This document shows positions 3,021 to 39,619 of a DNA stretch of 39,619 bases, piece after piece. The notes beneath the pieces were generated by a model. The model saw only the letters and a list, made by a program, of their open reading frames with translations, searched no databases and was not told where the DNA came from. Position numbers and translations under genes: made by a program. The stretch's first letter is position 1, and the number at the start of each line of letters is the position of its first letter. This DNA is from Verrucomicrobiota bacterium (GTDB lineage: Bacteria; Verrucomicrobiota; Verrucomicrobiia; Limisphaerales; JACQFS01), in assembly GCA_016199935.1 (NCBI GenBank), contig JACQFS010000171.1:1-39619 (forward strand), written 5' to 3'.

Positions 3021-5138
3021 TCATTTCCCCGCCTGCTCCAGCGCATCCAGCACGATGCCCGGCGTGAGCAGTTCCGGCAGCAGAATCGGCGGCTTGCTCG
3101 CGTCCCTGGGATAGATCAGCACCATCGGCACGCCGGCGCGGCCGAACTTTTTCAGCTCGGCGGTCATCACGTCCGGCGTGAGCGTGTAGTCGCCGAGCAG
3201 CGACACGGCGTTGAGCGCCTTGAGCTTCGCCTGCACGGAGGGAATCTCGAGGCTGGTCTTTTTGTTCGCCTGACAGGTCACGCACCAGTCGGCGGTGAAA
3301 TCCACGAGCACCACGCGGCCCTCGCCGCGCGCCTTGGCCACCGTCTCCGCGCTCCACGGTTCCCACGCGATGCCGCCGGGCGTCTGCTCGATGCCGCCGG
3401 CCCTCACCGGGGCAGGCGCGCGCCAGTGAAGTTGCTTTTCCAAAATGAAAACGTAGCCGCTGATGAGCAGCGCGACGCTGATGAACATCGCCCAGCCCTT
3501 GTGCTTGCGCCCGCGCTGGACGAACTCGCCCCACACCCACGCCGCCATCGCCAGCAACACGAGGAAAATGCCGAGCCAGAAAACCTGCCGGCCGAAATGC
3601 GCCGCGCCCACGTCGAACGCCAGCCACGCCGCCGTCGCCAGCATCGGGAAGCCCATCGCGATCTTGAACTTCTCCATCCACGCGCCGGGCCGCGGCAGGA
3701 AAACAAAAAGCTGCGGCATGAAACTCAGCAGCACATACGGCAGCGCCAGCCCGAGGCCGATGACGAGGAACATGAGCACCACGACGACCGGCGGTTGCGC
3801 GAACGCGAAGCCCAGGGCCGCGCCGAGGAACGGCGCCGTGCAGGGCGTGGCGAGCGCGGTGGCGAGCACGCCATTGAAGAACGCGCCCGCGTTGCCTTCC
3901 TTGCCGGAGAGCTCGGTCGCCGCGCCCATCGCGCGGCCGCCGAGGATGATTTCAAACAGGCCGAACAGGTTCAGCGCCACGAGCGTGACGAGCACCACCA
4001 TCGCCACGATGAACTTGGGATTGCCGAACTGCATCCCCCAGCTCGCGAGCTTGCCCGCCTGCTGCACGCCGACCACCACGCCCGCGAGCACGAGGAACGA
4101 ACAGAGCACGCCCACCATGTAGATAAGCCCGTGCTTGCGCACGCTCCCCGGCGATGACTTGCTCTGCTGCACGAAGCCCAGAACTTTCAGCGCGATGACG
4201 GGCAACACGCACGGCATGACGTTGAGGATGAGTCCGCCGATGAACGCGAACGCCAGCATCAGCACGAGGGAGCGTTCATCCACCGGGCTGGCTCCCGGCG
4301 GCGTCTCGCCGCCGACGCCGGTCGGGGCCGTGGCCGCGACGGCGAGCTGCACCTCGTGGGCGACCGGCGCCCTGGCGGCGTCGGCACGTTGCACGAGCAC
4401 GCCGGTGAGCGTGGCCGGCCAGTCGCCCGAACTTTTCTTCACCAGTTTGCGGATCTGGCCGGGCGCAATCTTTTCCGTGAGGGCGGCGACTTCGGAGGCG
4501 TCGGTGCCGTAGGGGAAAAAATCCACGTCGCCCGCCGCGCCGTCGGTCGTGATGATGAGCGGACGGGAATCGCCCTTCGCCGCGCCGGCCCAACCGGCCC
4601 GGGCCACGGGCGCAACATTGGGCACCGGGACCAGCGCGCGGAATTTTTCGATCAACGCCGCGTCGGCCGAGGGTCGGGTTTCGCCGGCGATGTTCAGCGT
4701 CGCCGCGACTTCGGTTTTCCCCTGCACGCACTGCACTTCGCATTCGAGCCACGCGACCCTGGCGTGCAGTTCCATGAGACCGGTCGGCGCGTCGGGCGGG
4801 ATCTTCAACGGCACCACGAGCACCACCTCGTCGTGGTAGGCGTAGGTCGTCTGGTCGGCGACGACGAACTTCTCGGGCAGCGGCCATTCGATTTCGCCGG
4901 CGGTGATGCCCTTGGGCAGCGTCCACTTCACGGTGGTCGGCATGCCGGAATCGCCGGAGTTGCGCCAGTAGGTGTGCCACTTGGGTTCCATCTTGAGGTG
5001 GATGCCCGCGAGCACGGTGTCGCCGGGCTTCGCGGATTCGACGGCGAGCAGGAGGCGGACGGAGGTCTTGTTCGCCGCCAGCGCGGGCGTGGCCAGGGCG
5101 AGCAGCAGCGGCAGCGCGAGGAGTCGGAGCCAGTTCAT
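3021..5138 (-). CDS. dsbD: Thiol:disulfide interchange protein DsbD
   Basis: This 705-residue membrane protein carries reductant from cytoplasmic thioredoxin to the periplasm. It starts at ATG 5136-5138 with a signal peptide (LRLLALPLLLALATPALAA). A periplasmic DsbD-alpha-like domain follows and includes a Cys pair in LECEVQCVQG. The central DsbD/CcdA membrane domain has about eight helices and two helix-borne cysteines, in NVMPCVLPVIALKVLG and ATALATPCTAPFLGAALG. The C-terminal thioredoxin-like domain has WCVTC (Cys 619 and 622), followed by the cis-proline region GVPMVLIY. All three redox modules of classical DsbD are therefore present with their cysteines. It stands alone, separated from the divergent phospholipase D-type gene by a palindromic element. 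Confidence 0.93.
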   Translation of the reverse strand: MNWLRLLALPLLLALATPALAANKTSVRLLLAVESAKPGDTVLAGIHLKMEPKWHTYWRNSGDSGMPTTVKWTLPKGITAGEIEWPLPEKFVVADQTTYAYHDEVVLVVPLKIPPDAPTGLMELHARVAWLECEVQCVQGKTEVAATLNIAGETRPSADAALIEKFRALVPVPNVAPVARAGWAGAAKGDSRPLIITTDGAAGDVDFFPYGTDASEVAALTEKIAPGQIRKLVKKSSGDWPATLTGVLVQRADAARAPVAHEVQLAVAATAPTGVGGETPPGASPVDERSLVLMLAFAFIGGLILNVMPCVLPVIALKVLGFVQQSKSSPGSVRKHGLIYMVGVLCSFLVLAGVVVGVQQAGKLASWGMQFGNPKFIVAMVVLVTLVALNLFGLFEIILGGRAMGAATELSGKEGNAGAFFNGVLATALATPCTAPFLGAALGFAFAQPPVVVVLMFLVIGLGLALPYVLLSFMPQLFVFLPRPGAWMEKFKIAMGFPMLATAAWLAFDVGAAHFGRQVFWLGIFLVLLAMAAWVWGEFVQRGRKHKGWAMFISVALLISGYVFILEKQLHWRAPAPVRAGGIEQTPGGIAWEPWSAETVAKARGEGRVVLVDFTADWCVTCQANKKTSLEIPSVQAKLKALNAVSLLGDYTLTPDVMTAELKKFGRAGVPMVLIYPRDASKPPILLPELLTPGIVLDALEQAGK

Positions 5139-6468: not shown

Positions 6469-6538
6469 CGGAGCGCGGAGCTCCAGCTCCGCGAGTTCAG
6501 CCTGTTTTCAACACGCAGAGCTGGAACTCTGCGCTCCG
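6469..6538. repeat. Nested palindromic element (GGAGCGC family), copy 2
   Basis: This element begins at the first base after the TGA stop of the cardiolipin synthase-like gene, so the junction reads TGACGGAGCGCGG. Left arm 6469-6493 and right arm 6514-6538 are inverted with three mismatches. Each arm is a mini-hairpin: CGGAGC-TCCA-GCTCCG on the left and GCAGAG-CTGGAA-CTCTGC on the right. Confidence 0.82.
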
Positions 6539-9565: not shown

Positions 9566-9940
9566 ATGAAATCCGAACGGCCGCTCAAGGTTGTCTTCTT
9601 CAAGACAGAGGCGGGCAACGAGCCGGTGCGCGACTGGCTCAAGGAATTGCCGAAGGAAGAGTGCAAGACCATCGGCGCGGACATATTGACGGTTCAATAC
9701 GCATGGCCGGTCGGAAAGCCGCTGGTGGACCATCTCGGCGACGGCCTCTGGGAAGTCCGCTCGCGGCTGGCGAACCGCATCGCGCGGACTCTGTTCGCCG
9801 TGGTGGACGAGGAAATCGTCCTGCTCCACGGCTTCATCAAGAAGCAACAGAAGACACCGGCGAACGAACTGGATTTGGCGAAGAAACGAAAACGACTCTA
9901 CCTGCAAAATTATGAGCAAGAGAATCCATCGCGGAAGTGA
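9566..9940 (+). CDS. higB: RelE/HigB-superfamily (Gp49-like) toxin
   Basis: This 124-residue protein has the features of HigB/phage-derived Gp49-like mRNA interferases: VVFFKTEAGNEPVRDWLKEL at the N-terminus, then DGLWEVRSRLANRIARTLFA, and EEIVLLHGFIKKQQKTP near the C-terminus (the conserved LLHGFxKKxxKTP motif). The family cleaves ribosome-associated mRNA. The start is ATG 9566, just after a small palindrome. The toxin precedes the antitoxin and overlaps it by 29 bp, the reversed order typical of higBA. The pair sits between direct repeats of the neighbouring permease gene end. Confidence 0.87.
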   Translation: MKSERPLKVVFFKTEAGNEPVRDWLKELPKEECKTIGADILTVQYAWPVGKPLVDHLGDGLWEVRSRLANRIARTLFAVVDEEIVLLHGFIKKQQKTPANELDLAKKRKRLYLQNYEQENPSRK

Positions 9941-15980: not shown

Positions 15981-16089
15981 CGGAGCGCGGTCTTCAGGCC
16001 GCTTCACCGCCCGATGCCTCATCACGCTCCACTAATTCAGAACGCTCTTCGCGCACCGCACCGTGAAGCGGCGTAAACGCCGCGCTCCG
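15981..16089. repeat. Nested palindromic element (GGAGCGC family), copy 3
   Basis: The element starts at the base after the ybaB TGA (junction TGACGGAGCGCGG) and fills the ybaB-recR gap. Left arm 15981-16007 contains a mini-hairpin with apical TTCA; right arm 16063-16089 contains GGCG-TAAA-CGCC. The outer arms pair as CGGAGCGCGG/CCGCGCTCCG and GCTTCAC/GTGAAGC. Loop order TTCA..TAAA is the reverse orientation of the copy at 37226-37324. Confidence 0.88.
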
Positions 16090-17521: not shown

Positions 17522-19891
17522 TCACGTCCGCCGTCGCGCCACGAAGAGCAGCAACGCGCACAGCGCCACGAACGGCAGGAGTGAGAGCCAGTCGGCGTGC
17601 GGCCCGGCGAAAAACGGATTGTGCGCCTCGGCCCATTTCCCGAGCGCCGCATCCTTCTTGGCGAACGCGCTGGCCATGATCGCGATGATGATTCCCGCGA
17701 TCGCTCCGCCCGCGATGTAGCCCGAGGCCATCAGCACGCCGGGACTCTTGTCGCTCCCCGCGGCAAGTTCGGCCTCGGTGAGTTTCGCGTTGCGCGGATT
17801 GGTCCGCTCGCGGTGGTCCACGAGCCAGCGGATCATGCCGCCGATGAAAATGGGCGCCGAGGTCGCGAGCGGGAGATACACGCCGACGGCGAACGCGAGC
17901 GACGACACGCCCGCGAGTTCGAGCGTCACGGCAATCATCACGCCGAACAGCACGAGCGACCACGGCAGCTTGCGATCGAGGATGCCGCGGATGATGTAGC
18001 TCACGAGCACGGCCTTGGGCGCCTCGAGTTTGCGGACCTCCGTGCCGTCGGGGCGCCTCGTTTGCGTGCCGTTGATGCCGGGGTCCACAAACCACACGGC
18101 GCGGCCGGAGTCGTCCACGAGAAACTTTTTCGCCGCACCGCCCGCCGGGTCGGCCTGGTGCCACACGCGGTAAGAGTTCGCGTCGGTCGCCGACTGCGGG
18201 CCGCGAAGTTTTTCCGACGCACCGATTTCATTCGCGGGCGCGATCAGGCCGGGCGCGATCTTTTCCGCCGGCACATACACGGTCGCGGACTGATTCAGGC
18301 CGAGCAGAATCGGGCCGAGCGCGAGCGCCGAAGCCGCCGCGCCGATGAGGATGGCGACCTGCTGCGCGCGCGGTGTCGCGCCGACGAGGAAGCCCGTCTT
18401 CAAATCCTGCGAGGTGTTGCCGCCGTTCGCCGCCGCGACGCACACGATGCCGCCGACCGACAGCGCCGTGACGTAGGAATCGCCGCCGGTCCAGCCCACG
18501 AGCAGGAAAATGAGGCACGTGAGCAGCAGCGTGGCGATGGTCATGCCGGAGATGGGATTGGATGAGGAACCGATCTCGCCGCACAACCGCGACGACACGG
18601 TGACGAACAGAAAACCGAACACCACGACGAGCACGGCGGCGAGTGGATTGATATGGAGCGGGCGCGCGAGCAGCATCGCCGCGATGAGCACCGCGATGCC
18701 GAGGGCGACGAACTTCATCGAAAGGTCGCGGTCGGTGCGGAGCGACGGAGCGCGGGCCGTCCCGGCCCGCAGCGGGTCCGCATCGGAAGCGGCGTGAAAA
18801 TTTTCTGGCGCGCTCTCGGTTCGTGACTGCTGCGGGCCGGGACGGCCCGCGCTCCGGCCACGCGAAAAATCCGCCACCCCCGCCTTCAACCCGCGCCAGA
18901 TGGTGGGGAGCGAACGCACTAGGCTGATGAGGCCACCCGCCGTCACCGCCCCCGCGCCGATGTAGAGAATGTAGGCGCTGCGGACCTGGCCGGCCGACAT
19001 TTGCGAAATCGCCACCGTGCCCGGCGGCAGCGCGGCGGCTAGTCCTTCGCCGAAAAATTTGATGAGCGGAATCAGCAGCAGATACGAAAGCACGCCGCCG
19101 GCCGCCATGATGCACCCTATGCGCGGCCCGATGATGTAGCCGACGCCGAGCAACTCGGGCGAGACCTCGACGCCGACGGAGCCGCTCTTGAGCGGCGCGC
19201 CGAAAATTTTCTCGGGCACTTCCTTCCAGCCCTTGAGCGCGATCATCGCGGTCTTGTAGGCCAACCCGAGTCCGAAGCCCGCGAAGATGGTTCGCGCGCT
19301 CAACCCTTCCGGCGCGCGACCTTCAGGCCGCTTCGACGTTGATTCGCCGCCGGGCGGTGAAGCGGCGTGAACGCCGCGCTCCGCCACGGCGCGCGATTCG
19401 TCACACGCGCCGGCCTTGAGCACCTCGGCGCACGCGGTGCCCTCGGGGTATTTCAATTTGCCATGCTCCTGCACGATGAGTGCGCGGCGCAGCGGGATCA
19501 TCATCAGGATGCCGAGCAAGCCGCCGAGCACGGCGACGAGCGCGACGCGGAACAGTTCGAGGTCGAAGCCGAGAATCAGAATGGCCGGCATCGTCACGCC
19601 CACTCCGAACGCGAGCGACTCGCCCGCGGAGCCGGCGGATTGGGTGATGTTGTGTTCGAGGATGGTCGCATCGCGGCCGCCGAGTTTTTCCCAAAGCCGG
19701 AAGAGCGTGATGGAAATGACCGCGACCGGGATCGAGGCGCTCACGGTCAGCCCGACCTTGAGCACGAGGTAGAGCGACGACGCGCCAAAGATCATCCCGA
19801 GAAACGTGCCGACGATGACGGCACGCGGCGTGAACTCGCGGAGGCTCGCGGACGCGGGGATGAAGGGTTTCGGAATCAAATCAGAGTCCAT
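17522..19891 (-). CDS. OPT family oligopeptide/metal-chelate transporter
   Basis: A 789-residue polytopic membrane protein with the OPT-family N-terminus ([20 protein letters not shown], then LYLVLKVGL) and later family motifs ([66 protein letters not shown]). Family members import peptides or metal-siderophore complexes by proton symport. I start at ATG 19891, since the 14 upstream residues begin with TTG and are not conserved. Two palindromic repeats (18747-18855 and 19310-19383) lie inside the frame and encode Arg/Pro/Ser-rich inserts at about residues 345-381 and 169-194, both in predicted hydrophilic loops. The frame stays open, so the protein may still function. A long non-membrane loop near the C-terminal third is common in this subgroup. 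Confidence 0.88.
18747..18855. repeat. Nested palindromic element inside the OPT gene, copy A
   Basis: Two perfect 26-bp inverted arms (18747-18772 and 18830-18855) begin GGAGCGCGGG and end in the complement. Each arm is a hairpin with a 7-bp GCGGGCC/GGCCCGC stem and a 5-base loop (GTCCC left, GGGAC right). The 57-base centre also reads through without a stop, so the transporter frame is preserved. Confidence 0.92.
19310..19383. repeat. Nested palindromic element inside the OPT gene, copy B
   Basis: The left arm has CCTTCAGGCCGCTTC, and the right arm GAAGCGGCGTGAACGCCGCG followed by CTCCG at 19380-19384. The left outer clamp is degraded (GGCGCGCGAC rather than CGGAGCGCGG). The mini-hairpin loops are TTCA and TGAA. 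It encodes part of an insert of roughly 25 residues rich in Ser, Pro and Arg in the transporter. Confidence 0.8.
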
Positions 19892-37225: not shown

Positions 37226-37324
37226 CGGAGCGCGGCGTTTACGCCGCTTCAACGTTCGGACGCCACGGACCAATCGTATCCGCCACGCCGTCGGACCCCG
37301 AAGCGGCCTGAAGGCCGCGCTCCG
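37226..37324. repeat. Nested palindromic element (GGAGCGC family), copy 4
   Basis: The left arm from 37226 has CGGAGCGC and mini-hairpin GGCG-TTTA-CGCC followed by GCTTCAAC. The right arm ending at 37324 has GAAGCGG, mini-hairpin GGCC-TGAA-GGCC and GCGCTCCG. The centre of about 45 bases is not palindromic. It fills the space between the gldA-like gene's upstream region and the GMC gene's end, starting three bases after the TAG stop on that gene's strand. Confidence 0.9.
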
Positions 37325-37327
37325 CGG

Positions 37328-38920
37328 CTACCGGCTTGAGAAACTACCGCCGCGCCCGGAAGTCAATCGATCCACCAGACGCGTCACCAACGCCAGCGCC
37401 GTGAAGGTGACGTTCGCGTTGCTGGTGGTGCGGAACGAAGCGGCGCCAATCACATACAGATTCGTGGTGCCGAAAACCCGAAGGTCGCGATCCACGACGC
37501 CGTCCTTTTCCGTTTCGCCCATGCGGGCGCCGCCGGACTGGTGATAGTTGTCGTGCAGCGTGGCCGCAAATTTCGGTTCCAGATTCATCAGCCAATCGGC
37601 GAGGTGGAGCCGGGCGAGGCCGGCGGCGCGCAGCGCGCGATCGCAGTGGAGCGTGAACTCCCTGATGGAAGCGATCTCCTCACTGCCGACGCGCCAGTCG
37701 AGAATCGCCTTGGGCAGGCCGTCGGCATCCTTCACCGCGGGATCAATGGAAATGCGGCTCGCCTTGAGCGGGGTCTGTTCGCCCTGGATGTTGAGCGAAA
37801 TTTTGGAGGTGCCCGGAACGAAGATGCGATTCTGCACGACGTATTTCCACATCAGCGGCAACAGGTGCGCGCCACAGGCCCGGAGGTTTCGGAAGAGATC
37901 GCCGAGGCCGGAAAACTTGCGGCTGTAGAGCGCCGCTTTCACGAACTGCTTGAGATAGACCAGGTTTTCGCTGATGGAACTCTCGAACGACATCATCGCC
38001 TGGATGTTCATGATCCGGGAACTTTGCAGCGTCTGGTCCGTGAGCCGGATTTTCGGCTGAAACTTGTGCCCGGACCAGACGATGGTCGAGAAGGTGTTGA
38101 AGAACCGCCGCCGGTCGAGCACCTCGAGCGCGGCGACGCGGCCCACCAGATGATCCTGAAAGTAGGCGCCGACATTTTCGTTGTTGCGCCACGGGCAATC
38201 CCAACTCGGCGTGGCGGCGGCGTGTAGGAGCAGTCGGGCAATCTCGATCGTTCCCGCCGCGAGGATGAATTCGTCGCCCCCGATCAAATGCTCCTTGCCG
38301 GCATGGTCAACGATCCGGATGGCGGTGATCGCACCGTTGGCCCCGGCGAACCCCACCACGGTGTGGTTCAACAGCACCTTGAACTTTTCGTGCGAACGGA
38401 TTTCTTCCGCGTAAGCGACCGAGAGGCTGGGCACCTTCAACCACCGCGTCAGGAACAGCTCCAACCCTTCCGTGAAATCCGTCGTCGCGCCGCCCGCGTG
38501 CTTGAAGACCTGGCGGTCGTCCAAAAACTCGCGGGGAATCCCGAGGTTCGCGTAAGTGCGCTCATAATGGGCCGCCACCTCGGCGTAGGTGACCGGCCAC
38601 TTTGAATCCGGAACCCAGTCCCGCCCGGCAAAATCAACGGGCTGAAATTCCACCAGTTGACCGCCCCAAAGATTCGAGGTCCCACCCAGATTGCGGGCGC
38701 GGCCGAGGCGGATGCCGTCATGGGGTTTGCCGACTGAAGCGAAACTTTCCGGCGCAAAATTTCCCAACGCCTGTCCGCCGCACTCGATCACCACCACCTC
38801 CTGCCCGCGCTTGACGAGCTCGCGCGCGGCGTAGAGCCCCACGGTGCCCCCGCCGATGATCACGGTTCGCCGGCCGCCCGTGGCGGGGACGGCGAGCTCG
38901 GCACATTCGGTCAGCAACAT
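37328..38920 (-). CDS. GMC family FAD-dependent oxidoreductase
   Basis: A 530-residue protein with an N-terminal FAD-binding Rossmann motif (VIIGGGTVGLYAARELVKRG, acidic end VVVIECGG), the GMC signature NLGGTSNLWGG, and a central FILAAGTIEIARLLL segment. The C-terminal GMC domain has YHQSGGARMG and NLYVIGAASFRTTSNANVTF, where the His and Asn match the active-site positions of glucose-methanol-choline oxidoreductases. No signal peptide or extra cytochrome domain is seen. It oxidises an alcohol or sugar, but the substrate cannot be read from sequence. The start is ATG 38918-38920. A second subunit often found beside bacterial GMC enzymes is not adjacent. Confidence 0.88.
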   Translation of the reverse strand: MLLTECAELAVPATGGRRTVIIGGGTVGLYAARELVKRGQEVVVIECGGQALGNFAPESFASVGKPHDGIRLGRARNLGGTSNLWGGQLVEFQPVDFAGRDWVPDSKWPVTYAEVAAHYERTYANLGIPREFLDDRQVFKHAGGATTDFTEGLELFLTRWLKVPSLSVAYAEEIRSHEKFKVLLNHTVVGFAGANGAITAIRIVDHAGKEHLIGGDEFILAAGTIEIARLLLHAAATPSWDCPWRNNENVGAYFQDHLVGRVAALEVLDRRRFFNTFSTIVWSGHKFQPKIRLTDQTLQSSRIMNIQAMMSFESSISENLVYLKQFVKAALYSRKFSGLGDLFRNLRACGAHLLPLMWKYVVQNRIFVPGTSKISLNIQGEQTPLKASRISIDPAVKDADGLPKAILDWRVGSEEIASIREFTLHCDRALRAAGLARLHLADWLMNLEPKFAATLHDNYHQSGGARMGETEKDGVVDRDLRVFGTTNLYVIGAASFRTTSNANVTFTALALVTRLVDRLTSGRGGSFSSR

Positions 38921-39110
38921 GGGCGTGACAGGTCAGTTGAAAGTGGCGCTCGTGACGCGGCTCGGTTCGGAGAGAATTGCGGTGGCGTGGAGTTGATCGG
39001 CGGCGATTTTCTGCGTGAAGCACTAACTGTCAAGCGCCTTTGCCCTCTGATTTGGAAAACCGCTCCGGAAGTGTGGGCGCGGCGCTACTCGTCGTCGCGC
39101 GACGAGTTCC

Positions 39111-39171
39111 ACCCCTCACCCGCCGCTTCGCGTCACCCTCTCCCATCGGATGGGAGAGGGCCGGGGTGAGG
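39111..39171. repeat. CCCTCACCC / GGGTGAGG nested palindrome
   Basis: The inner 12-bp perfect arms (39136-39147 and 39149-39160; CCCTCTCCCATC and complement) are bracketed by CCCCTCACCCG and CCGGGGTGAGG. This type occurs in many Gram-negative genomes. It lies in the 397-bp gap 38921-39317 between the GMC gene and the collagen-like gene; the rest of that gap, apart from the following element, shows no gene. Confidence 0.8.
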
Positions 39172-39201
39172 GCCGTTCACCGCCTGAGCGCGAGCCTCCG
39201 C

Positions 39202-39315
39202 GTAGCGCAGGTTGCCAACCTGCGGTGTCGCCGACTGGCAGTCGGCTGGCGGCCGGCGAAACCGGCGTCCGCGGATTGCCAATCCGTGACACGGCAGACT
39301 GCCAGTCTGCGCTAC
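39202..39315. repeat. Five-hairpin GTAGCGC element
   Basis: GTAGCGC (39202) and GCGCTAC (to 39315) bracket five hairpins in a row: 39207-39223, 39230-39246, 39252-39266, 39272-39286 and 39294-39310. Four have a GCC or GGC apex with perfect stems (for example GCAGGTT-GCC-AACCTGC and GCAGACT-GCC-AGTCTGC). The third is GCCGG-CGAAA-CCGGC. On the minus strand the element starts two bases after the TGA of the collagen-like gene. Confidence 0.9.
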
Positions 39316-39317
39316 CG

Positions 39318-39619
39318 TCATCTCCGCTGCGCGAGCACGAGCGCGTTATACGCGGTGCGCATCAACTCCATGTCCGCGAGCGTGGGTGGGTCGTTGGTGA
39401 AGGGCGTGTCCAGCGTCGGCACCCCGTTCGTGTTGGCCGAACTGTTCGCGGCGGCGGACGCAAGCGTGGCGGCGAGGCCGTCGCTCAACTGCGTCGCGGT
39501 CACCTCGCCGGGATCACCCTTGTCGCCTTTCTCGCCCTGAGTGCCCGTCCCGCCGGCGTTGCCATTCGCGCCGGGTGCGCCGGTCACGCCGTCGTGGCCG
39601 CGCGGGAGGCCGAGGGTGA
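39318..39619 (-). CDS. Collagen-like repeat protein, C-terminal part (cut by window edge)
   Basis: The minus-strand frame is open from the window edge to TGA at 39318-39320, about 99 codons. The visible part begins with LPRGHDG and continues as Gly-X-Y triplets (GAPGANGNAGGTGTQGEKGD, then KGDPGEV), the pattern of bacterial collagen-like proteins, which form extracellular triple helices. A tail of about 65 residues without triplets follows, rich in Ala, Ser, Asn and Thr, ending LMRTAYNALVLAQRR. The 5' part and any signal or anchor lie outside the window. A GTG at 39585-39587 is in frame, but triplets extend upstream of it, so it is unlikely to be the start. Confidence 0.8.
   Translation of the reverse strand, partial: TLGLPRGHDGVTGAPGANGNAGGTGTQGEKGDKGDPGEVTATQLSDGLAATLASAAANSSANTNGVPTLDTPFTNDPPTLADMELMRTAYNALVLAQRR

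Follow-up and report, generated by a model that had tools for sequence, protein, structure and literature searches.

A verrucomicrobial REPIN of two double-hairpin GTAG REPs and its probable mobilisation in trans by a RAYT

The 114-bp element near the right end of the window (the whole stretch of 39,619 nucleotides of Verrucomicrobiota DNA analysed here) is most probably a REPIN: two inverted REP arms that together form a non-autonomous unit, which a RAYT (an HUH single-strand tyrosine transposase) from contig C16 of the same genome would mobilise in trans; we put the probability of this reading at roughly 0.85. We observed its architecture (Table 1), its recurrence, covariation in each hairpin, a fixed polarity of the arms, physical linkage to the RAYT gene, and a tag, hairpin number and tips that track the RAYT tree. 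The window copy lies between an ORF start at 38920 and the stop codon at 39318 and is thus extragenic, a point only partly checked for the other copies.

Table 1. Features of the element and of the adjacent gene end (window coordinates)
Feature	Position	Strand	Remark
Complete 114-bp unit: REPIN/BIME made of two double-hairpin GTAG REPs placed head to head	39202..39315	.	
GTAGC tag, left arm	39202..39206	+	Sequence
Left arm (arm B) hairpin 1 (H1), GCAGGTT-GCC-AACCTGC	39207..39223	+	Per-pair pairing 95-100% in 42 genomes
Linker GGTGTC, left arm (consensus YGTNTC)	39224..39229	+	
Left arm hairpin 2 (H2), GCCGACT-GGC-AGTCGGC; base GCCG marks arm B	39230..39246	+	Sequence and pairing statistics
Spacer, including the unconserved central hairpin GCCGG-CGAAA-CCGGC (39252-39266)	39247..39270	.	
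Right arm (arm A) hairpin 2 (H3), + strand letters GCGGATT-GCC-AATCCGT	39271..39287	-	
Linker GACACG, right arm (reverse complement of YGTRTC)	39288..39293	-	
Right arm hairpin 1 (H4), GCAGACT-GCC-AGTCTGC	39294..39310	-	Sequence and pairing statistics
GCTAC, the GTAGC tag of the right arm	39311..39315	-	
Collagen-like repeat gene, 3' end	39318..39619	-	Stop codon 39318-39320, two bases off the unit

An earlier note on this DNA had described five consecutive hairpins inside one clamp. The row of hairpins between GTAGC and GCTAC is real, both by its letters and in the folding test that the note proposed: the single-stranded DNA fold of the 114 nt had an energy of -41.3 kcal/mol (z = -6.4), with 0 of 200 dinucleotide shuffles as low, and the RNA folded as a single hairpin of -71.3 kcal/mol (z -6.1). 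The entire element is also a 74% inverted repeat, and a GTAG head-to-head hairpin pair was found 0 times in 20 block-shuffled windows. The stem of H1 reaches 8 bp when the 39206/39224 pair is added. H3 has a 6-bp core (CGGATT-GCC-AATCCG, 39272-39286), its outermost pair being missing in the window copy and retained in all six other copies of this genome. The number five did not hold as a type. The conserved object is four hairpins, two per arm, and the central hairpin is an accident of the window copy's spacer, because it is missing from the other own copies (best stem 2-4 bp) and because spacer hairpins are not enriched over shuffled spacers (stems of at least 5 bp in 11% of 114 distinct units vs 16%). 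The central hairpin is also weaker (5 bp, 5-nt loop) and lacks the apex that the other hairpins have in common.

The genome holds seven 114-bp copies, including that of the window; the six others are of equal length and 90-96% identical, and all six keep the four hairpins. A variant fused to the RAYT gene is present besides these seven. Related collagen-like gene ends adjoin four other copies. Contigs C214, C227, C236 and C237, with window positions 39318-39619, carry members of one collagen-like repeat gene family, with the REPIN at the 3' end of the gene; in four members (the window and three others) it lies two bases past the stop codon. The window portion scored 23.3 bits against Pfam Collagen, under the cut-off of 27.2. 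Homology in this family spans the gene end and the REPIN, and the opposite side is mostly unrelated. A second subfamily of four-hairpin units in the same genome (G000:C55:19876-19975 and G000:C237:3138-3263), in which the linker is GGGTT and the tips are of ATC/TTC type, resembles the REPs of another RAYT subclade (L296, L300).

Each arm is 45 nt long and consists of GTAGC, a 17-nt hairpin with base GCAG, the linker YGTNTC and a second 17-nt hairpin with base GC[CGA]G. When 463 sequences were collected by tag and linker alone, with no requirement for pairing, both hairpins had 5-7 of 7 pairs in 312; the tags of these arms were GTAGC (292), GTGGC (16) and GCAGC (4). Analysis of one unit per genome in 42 genomes revealed 95-100% Watson-Crick pairing at all stem pairs, compared with 5-39% in slid controls, and pairs 11.17 and 34.40 occurred as all four Watson-Crick types while remaining 98-100% paired. 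This near-total pairing with varied pair types and low controls indicates that every stem is upheld by compensatory change, and the earlier argument that slippage is insufficient to explain the stems was borne out. Several genomes have one dominant tip while their stems vary. The base before GTAG was C in 64%, and no target-site duplication was seen at the units when one was looked for.

The two arms are not interchangeable. The base of hairpin 2 is GCCG in one arm and mainly GCGG or GCAG in the other; one GCCG and one non-GCCG arm were present in 108/114 units, and the arms are therefore inherited, or travel, together. This 114-unit set required Y at linker position 1, where the window copy has G, so that the window copy falls outside the set and fits by eye. 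Selection against pairing of the arms as one long hairpin was a candidate explanation for a further regularity: the hairpins 2 of the two arms (H2 and H3) were never equal (0/114 units), and long-hairpin pairing is disrupted at fixed columns 31/43 with the local hairpins retained. The avoidance holds for H2/H3, yet we do not claim selection, because the GCCG versus GC[GA]G difference looks ancestral, because H1/H4 identity is at chance (8.0 vs 7.7, one unit per genome) and because, in an energy model with fixed structures, the long hairpin still ranks below the form with four hairpins.

Related units were present in 27/58 sampled genomes, the own genome counted. A strict whole-unit pattern was positive in 36/320 genomes of the same order, with zero matches for the reversed control and a highest count of 63 units in one genome (G051). 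At least 118 stretches matched when species genomes were scanned with an open pattern; their titles were from Verrucomicrobia, including Pedosphaera and Limisphaerales, except for a few that read just 'bacterium' and one Proteobacteria. Unit length was mainly 132-134 or 114-117 bp, as determined by the spacer. The search for forms with two to five hairpins suggested in the earlier note yielded single-arm half units (for example beside the RAYT) and GTAGC head-to-head pairs that mostly had four hairpins in the sampled stretches; counts of three or five mostly reflected decay or weak spacer hairpins.

Four Y1_Tnp matches were identified in the own genome. The gene at C16:6570-7292, whose product has 241 aa, is flanked by an upstream arm with two hairpins, by a four-hairpin unit that begins at its stop codon, and by one more arm; it is thus a RAYT gene flanked by its cognate REPs, as in a REPtron. 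Its stop codon TAG is the TAG within the REP's GTAG. Six other RAYT loci strictly share this arrangement, with a decayed copy visible by eye at several more; the stop TAG coincides with the TAG of the downstream REP's GTAG at L246, L251, L276, L277, L285, L289 and L300, and at L279 and L291 the tag reads GTAA with the stop preserved. The product scored over the cut-off for Pfam Y1_Tnp and 79.4 bits against NCBIfam REP_Tyr_transpos, just below the cut-off of 80. E. coli TnpA_REP ranked first in a PDB sequence comparison, and the best PDB match of an AlphaFold2 model (mean pLDDT 86.5) was 4er8 (E 1.8e-7), the structure of that same protein in complex with a REP hairpin. The protein has H.H and a Tyr, with H144 invariant and H146 conserved in at least 90% of 45 rows. 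Judged by its HUH motif, single predicted catalytic Tyr and modelled TnpA_REP fold, it fits a RAYT (TnpA_REP), and it is a candidate for the apex-binding protein that the earlier note proposed to look for. The other three Y1_Tnp genes (C260, C171 and C184) were rejected as partners; they adjoin other hairpins, not this family. In two other genomes, G017 and G009, units were present and a RAYT match was not found at E 1e-20 (G009 is 57% complete).

Tag, hairpin number and tip type follow the RAYT tree. The tree had 54 rows: a 33-row clade that contains the RAYT of this genome, a sister clade of 12 and an outer nine. Double-hairpin GTAG/GTGG REPs flank 28/29 RAYTs with a detected REP in the 33-row clade; the exception, L292, seems to be a double whose second hairpin is imperfect. 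GGAG single-hairpin REPs were found in 8/8 sister-clade members with REPs, and the outer rows comprised five with GTAG/GTGG single-hairpin REPs, one with GGAG, one unclear and two without a REP. Double versus single hairpin required two changes on this tree, and tip type required 7, compared with a minimum of 6 and a shuffled mean of 17.7; the tip classes in the double-hairpin clade (GGC/GCC; TGC/TTC; two-base CC; TTCC; CTCYG) were assigned by hand. The window also contains GGAG-tagged hairpin pairs at 6470-6537, 18747-18855 and 37227-37323, and singles near 16068 and 19362. The earlier note had taken the present element for an expanded form of a superfamily to which the two-hairpin elements belong. 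Its idea of a superfamily holds, and related forms are widespread; however, the element is not an expansion of the two-hairpin GGAGCGC elements by added hairpins, because these bear the GGAG tag, which in relatives goes with another RAYT clade (the sister clade), and because the basic REP of the present clade is already double-hairpin. No GGAG-type RAYT was identified in the own genome.

We infer recognition, cleavage and movement of the unit by the C16 RAYT, and a role for the second hairpin. Each arm presents GTAG and, rather than the usual single hairpin, two hairpins that would fold when the strand is single, for example on the lagging-strand template. The RAYT would recognise GTAG together with the tips of the hairpins, and would cut and rejoin beside them; the unit would thereby be copied or moved in one piece. 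The stems would then need only to pair, which would explain why they are variable while the tips are near-constant; paired but free stems with conserved tips are the expected outcome of reading by tag and tips. For group 3 TnpA_REP, the tag and one loop base are essential and the effect of stem sequence is modest (PMC8266576), and REPINs have been proposed to move when DNA is single-stranded (PMC3116915). Two observations speak against simple recent movement: the flank that five of the seven own copies share (described below), and two orthologous sites in the sibling genome G278, at which the unit is absent together with roughly 70-110 bp around it and neither of which is an exact empty site; an automated empty-site search in the retrieved loci returned only tandem or RAYT-flank artefacts. 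At locus L095 (G006:C76, ~9745-9876) a unit is nested in a second inverted repeat (GATCGGAAGTGGCGGG ... CCCGCCACTTCTGATC), and G278 lacks ~200 bp there, the unit among them.

REPs elsewhere show RNA effects, namely 3'-end stabilisation, processing or attenuation. The unit might therefore act mainly as RNA after the collagen-like gene, as a 3'-end stabiliser or a processing or attenuation structure, and be kept for that. The stop codon two bases away, repeated in three other own copies, and the stability of the single RNA hairpin fit this explanation, which we nonetheless regard as unlikely: there is no tie to a single gene, since the copies on C80 and C144 and those of other genomes are located elsewhere, the fixed columns 31/43 break the long RNA hairpin and spare the local ones, and the tips track the RAYT. 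The earlier note had named membership of a longer gene or of an unrelated RNA family as evidence against its reading; the unit lies outside the adjacent genes and has no Rfam match at curated cut-offs, and curated and relaxed thresholds together gave only low-scoring, microRNA-like chance matches. Slightly less likely again is passive spread by gene duplication and gene conversion with the RAYT as a bystander. Five of the seven own copies sit behind related collagen-like genes with flank in common, so that gene duplication accounts for part of the spread, and the right flanks of C6, C214, C227, C236 and C237 are ~70-81% alike across longer aligned stretches. However, the left flanks of the own copies are mostly unrelated past 23-40 nt, the flanks of C80 and C144 share nothing substantial with other copies, other genomes have up to 63 units, and the RAYT-REP coupling is strong.

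Recent tandem duplication of one hairpin by slippage is very improbable. The hairpins do have the apex and outer stem letters in common, but their base letters are position-specific (GCAG vs GC[CGA]G), each position keeping its own across 43 genomes, hairpins are closer to those at the same position in other genomes than to their unit-mates, and the inner stems of hairpins 1 and 2 within an arm are equal in fewer cases than chance predicts (8.4 vs 16.0, P = 0.008). Integron attC sites, IS200/IS605 ends and phage elements all use folded single strands, and the element could in principle be one of these; this is scarcely credible for a unit that has no internal transposase and ends in GTAG, and whose linked protein matches REP_Tyr_transpos ahead of the IS200 transposase and TnpA_REP ahead of IS200/IS605 structures.

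The four hairpins may also be non-equivalent. In 23.8/42 genomes, compared with 11.2 expected (P < 1/3000), the first hairpin of arm A (A-H1) and the second of arm B (B-H2) had equal inner stems, and a within-genome comparison also showed an excess of equal stems (40 vs 34.2, P = 0.011). The other three cross-arm pairings displayed no enrichment (A1-B1 and A2-B1 not enriched, A2-B2 depleted). The single-stranded DNA fold of the window copy pairs A-H1 with B-H2, enclosing the spacer and the remaining hairpin. A conserved asymmetric second fold acting as a structural switch of the REPIN is a tentative idea with the odds against it, and shared descent of the units, only partly reduced by sampling one per genome, could account for the agreement instead. 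If true, such a switch would be read by a RAYT that engages two hairpins at each end.

Much of this framework is already in print (PMC3733652), including verrucomicrobial GTAG repeats, head-head dimers, hetero-dimers, RAYT flanking and some double palindromes. GTAG-superfamily REPs form head-head (HH) dimers, commonly hetero-dimers, with 20-100 bp spacers, are RAYT-linked, and are reported to be abundant in the verrucomicrobium Opitutus terrae (Di Nocera et al. 2013, PMC3733652). The present element likewise has GTAG at its foot, a body that is palindromic, the HH arrangement, a RAYT link and multiple dispersed copies; however, a REP of that superfamily is one stem-loop of 20-40 bp, whereas here there are two stem-loops per tag throughout a RAYT clade, and we therefore regard it as a variant rather than a standard REP. 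Doubling has precedents: double palindromes surround the RAYT 607 of P. putida and the RAYT 4255 of P. fluorescens, and the spacer of A. tumefaciens CGTC-3 dimers contains two extra stem-loops (PMC3733652). As in REPINs (Bertels and Rainey 2011, PMC3116915), two inverted REPs would, by analogy, form one replicating unit with the RAYT in trans; unlike those published, this unit has four hairpins and a fixed A/B arm polarity. The perfectly paired REPs resemble the substrates of group 3 TnpA_REP of S. maltophilia and Marinomonas (PMC8266576), by analogy with which tag and loop would be decisive and stem letters minor; those substrates are single-hairpin, unlike the present arms. E. coli TnpA_REP (4er8) is the best PDB match of the C16 RAYT by sequence and structure, but its REP has a bulged stem and a purely structural loop (PMC8266576), unlike the REPs here. 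In the literature searched, which was mostly outside subscription journals, we found neither a RAYT clade with a standard two-hairpin REP nor a RAYT-linked GGAG tag described. REP choice by RAYTs has been dissected in few systems only. One order here offers a natural series of clades with GTAG/GTGG double, GTAG/GTGG single and GGAG single-hairpin REPs, with tips that track the protein tree, and this makes REP recognition (the residues that read tag, tip, and one or two hairpins) a comparative, testable problem; it is a clean case, with stem letters free and pairing maintained.

Other palindromes lie beside the unit. Window positions 39110-39172 contain a nested palindrome (CCCTCACCC...CCCTCTCCCATCGGATGGGAGAGGGCCGGGGTGAGGG), in which GGGGTGAG agrees with GGGGWSAS, the consensus for the TIRs of TIR-associated transposases (PMC3733652); L002 has similar copies at 3141 and 3229. 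The same intergenic region contains a perfect hairpin, ACTCGTCG-TCGCG-CGACGAGT, at 39087-39107.
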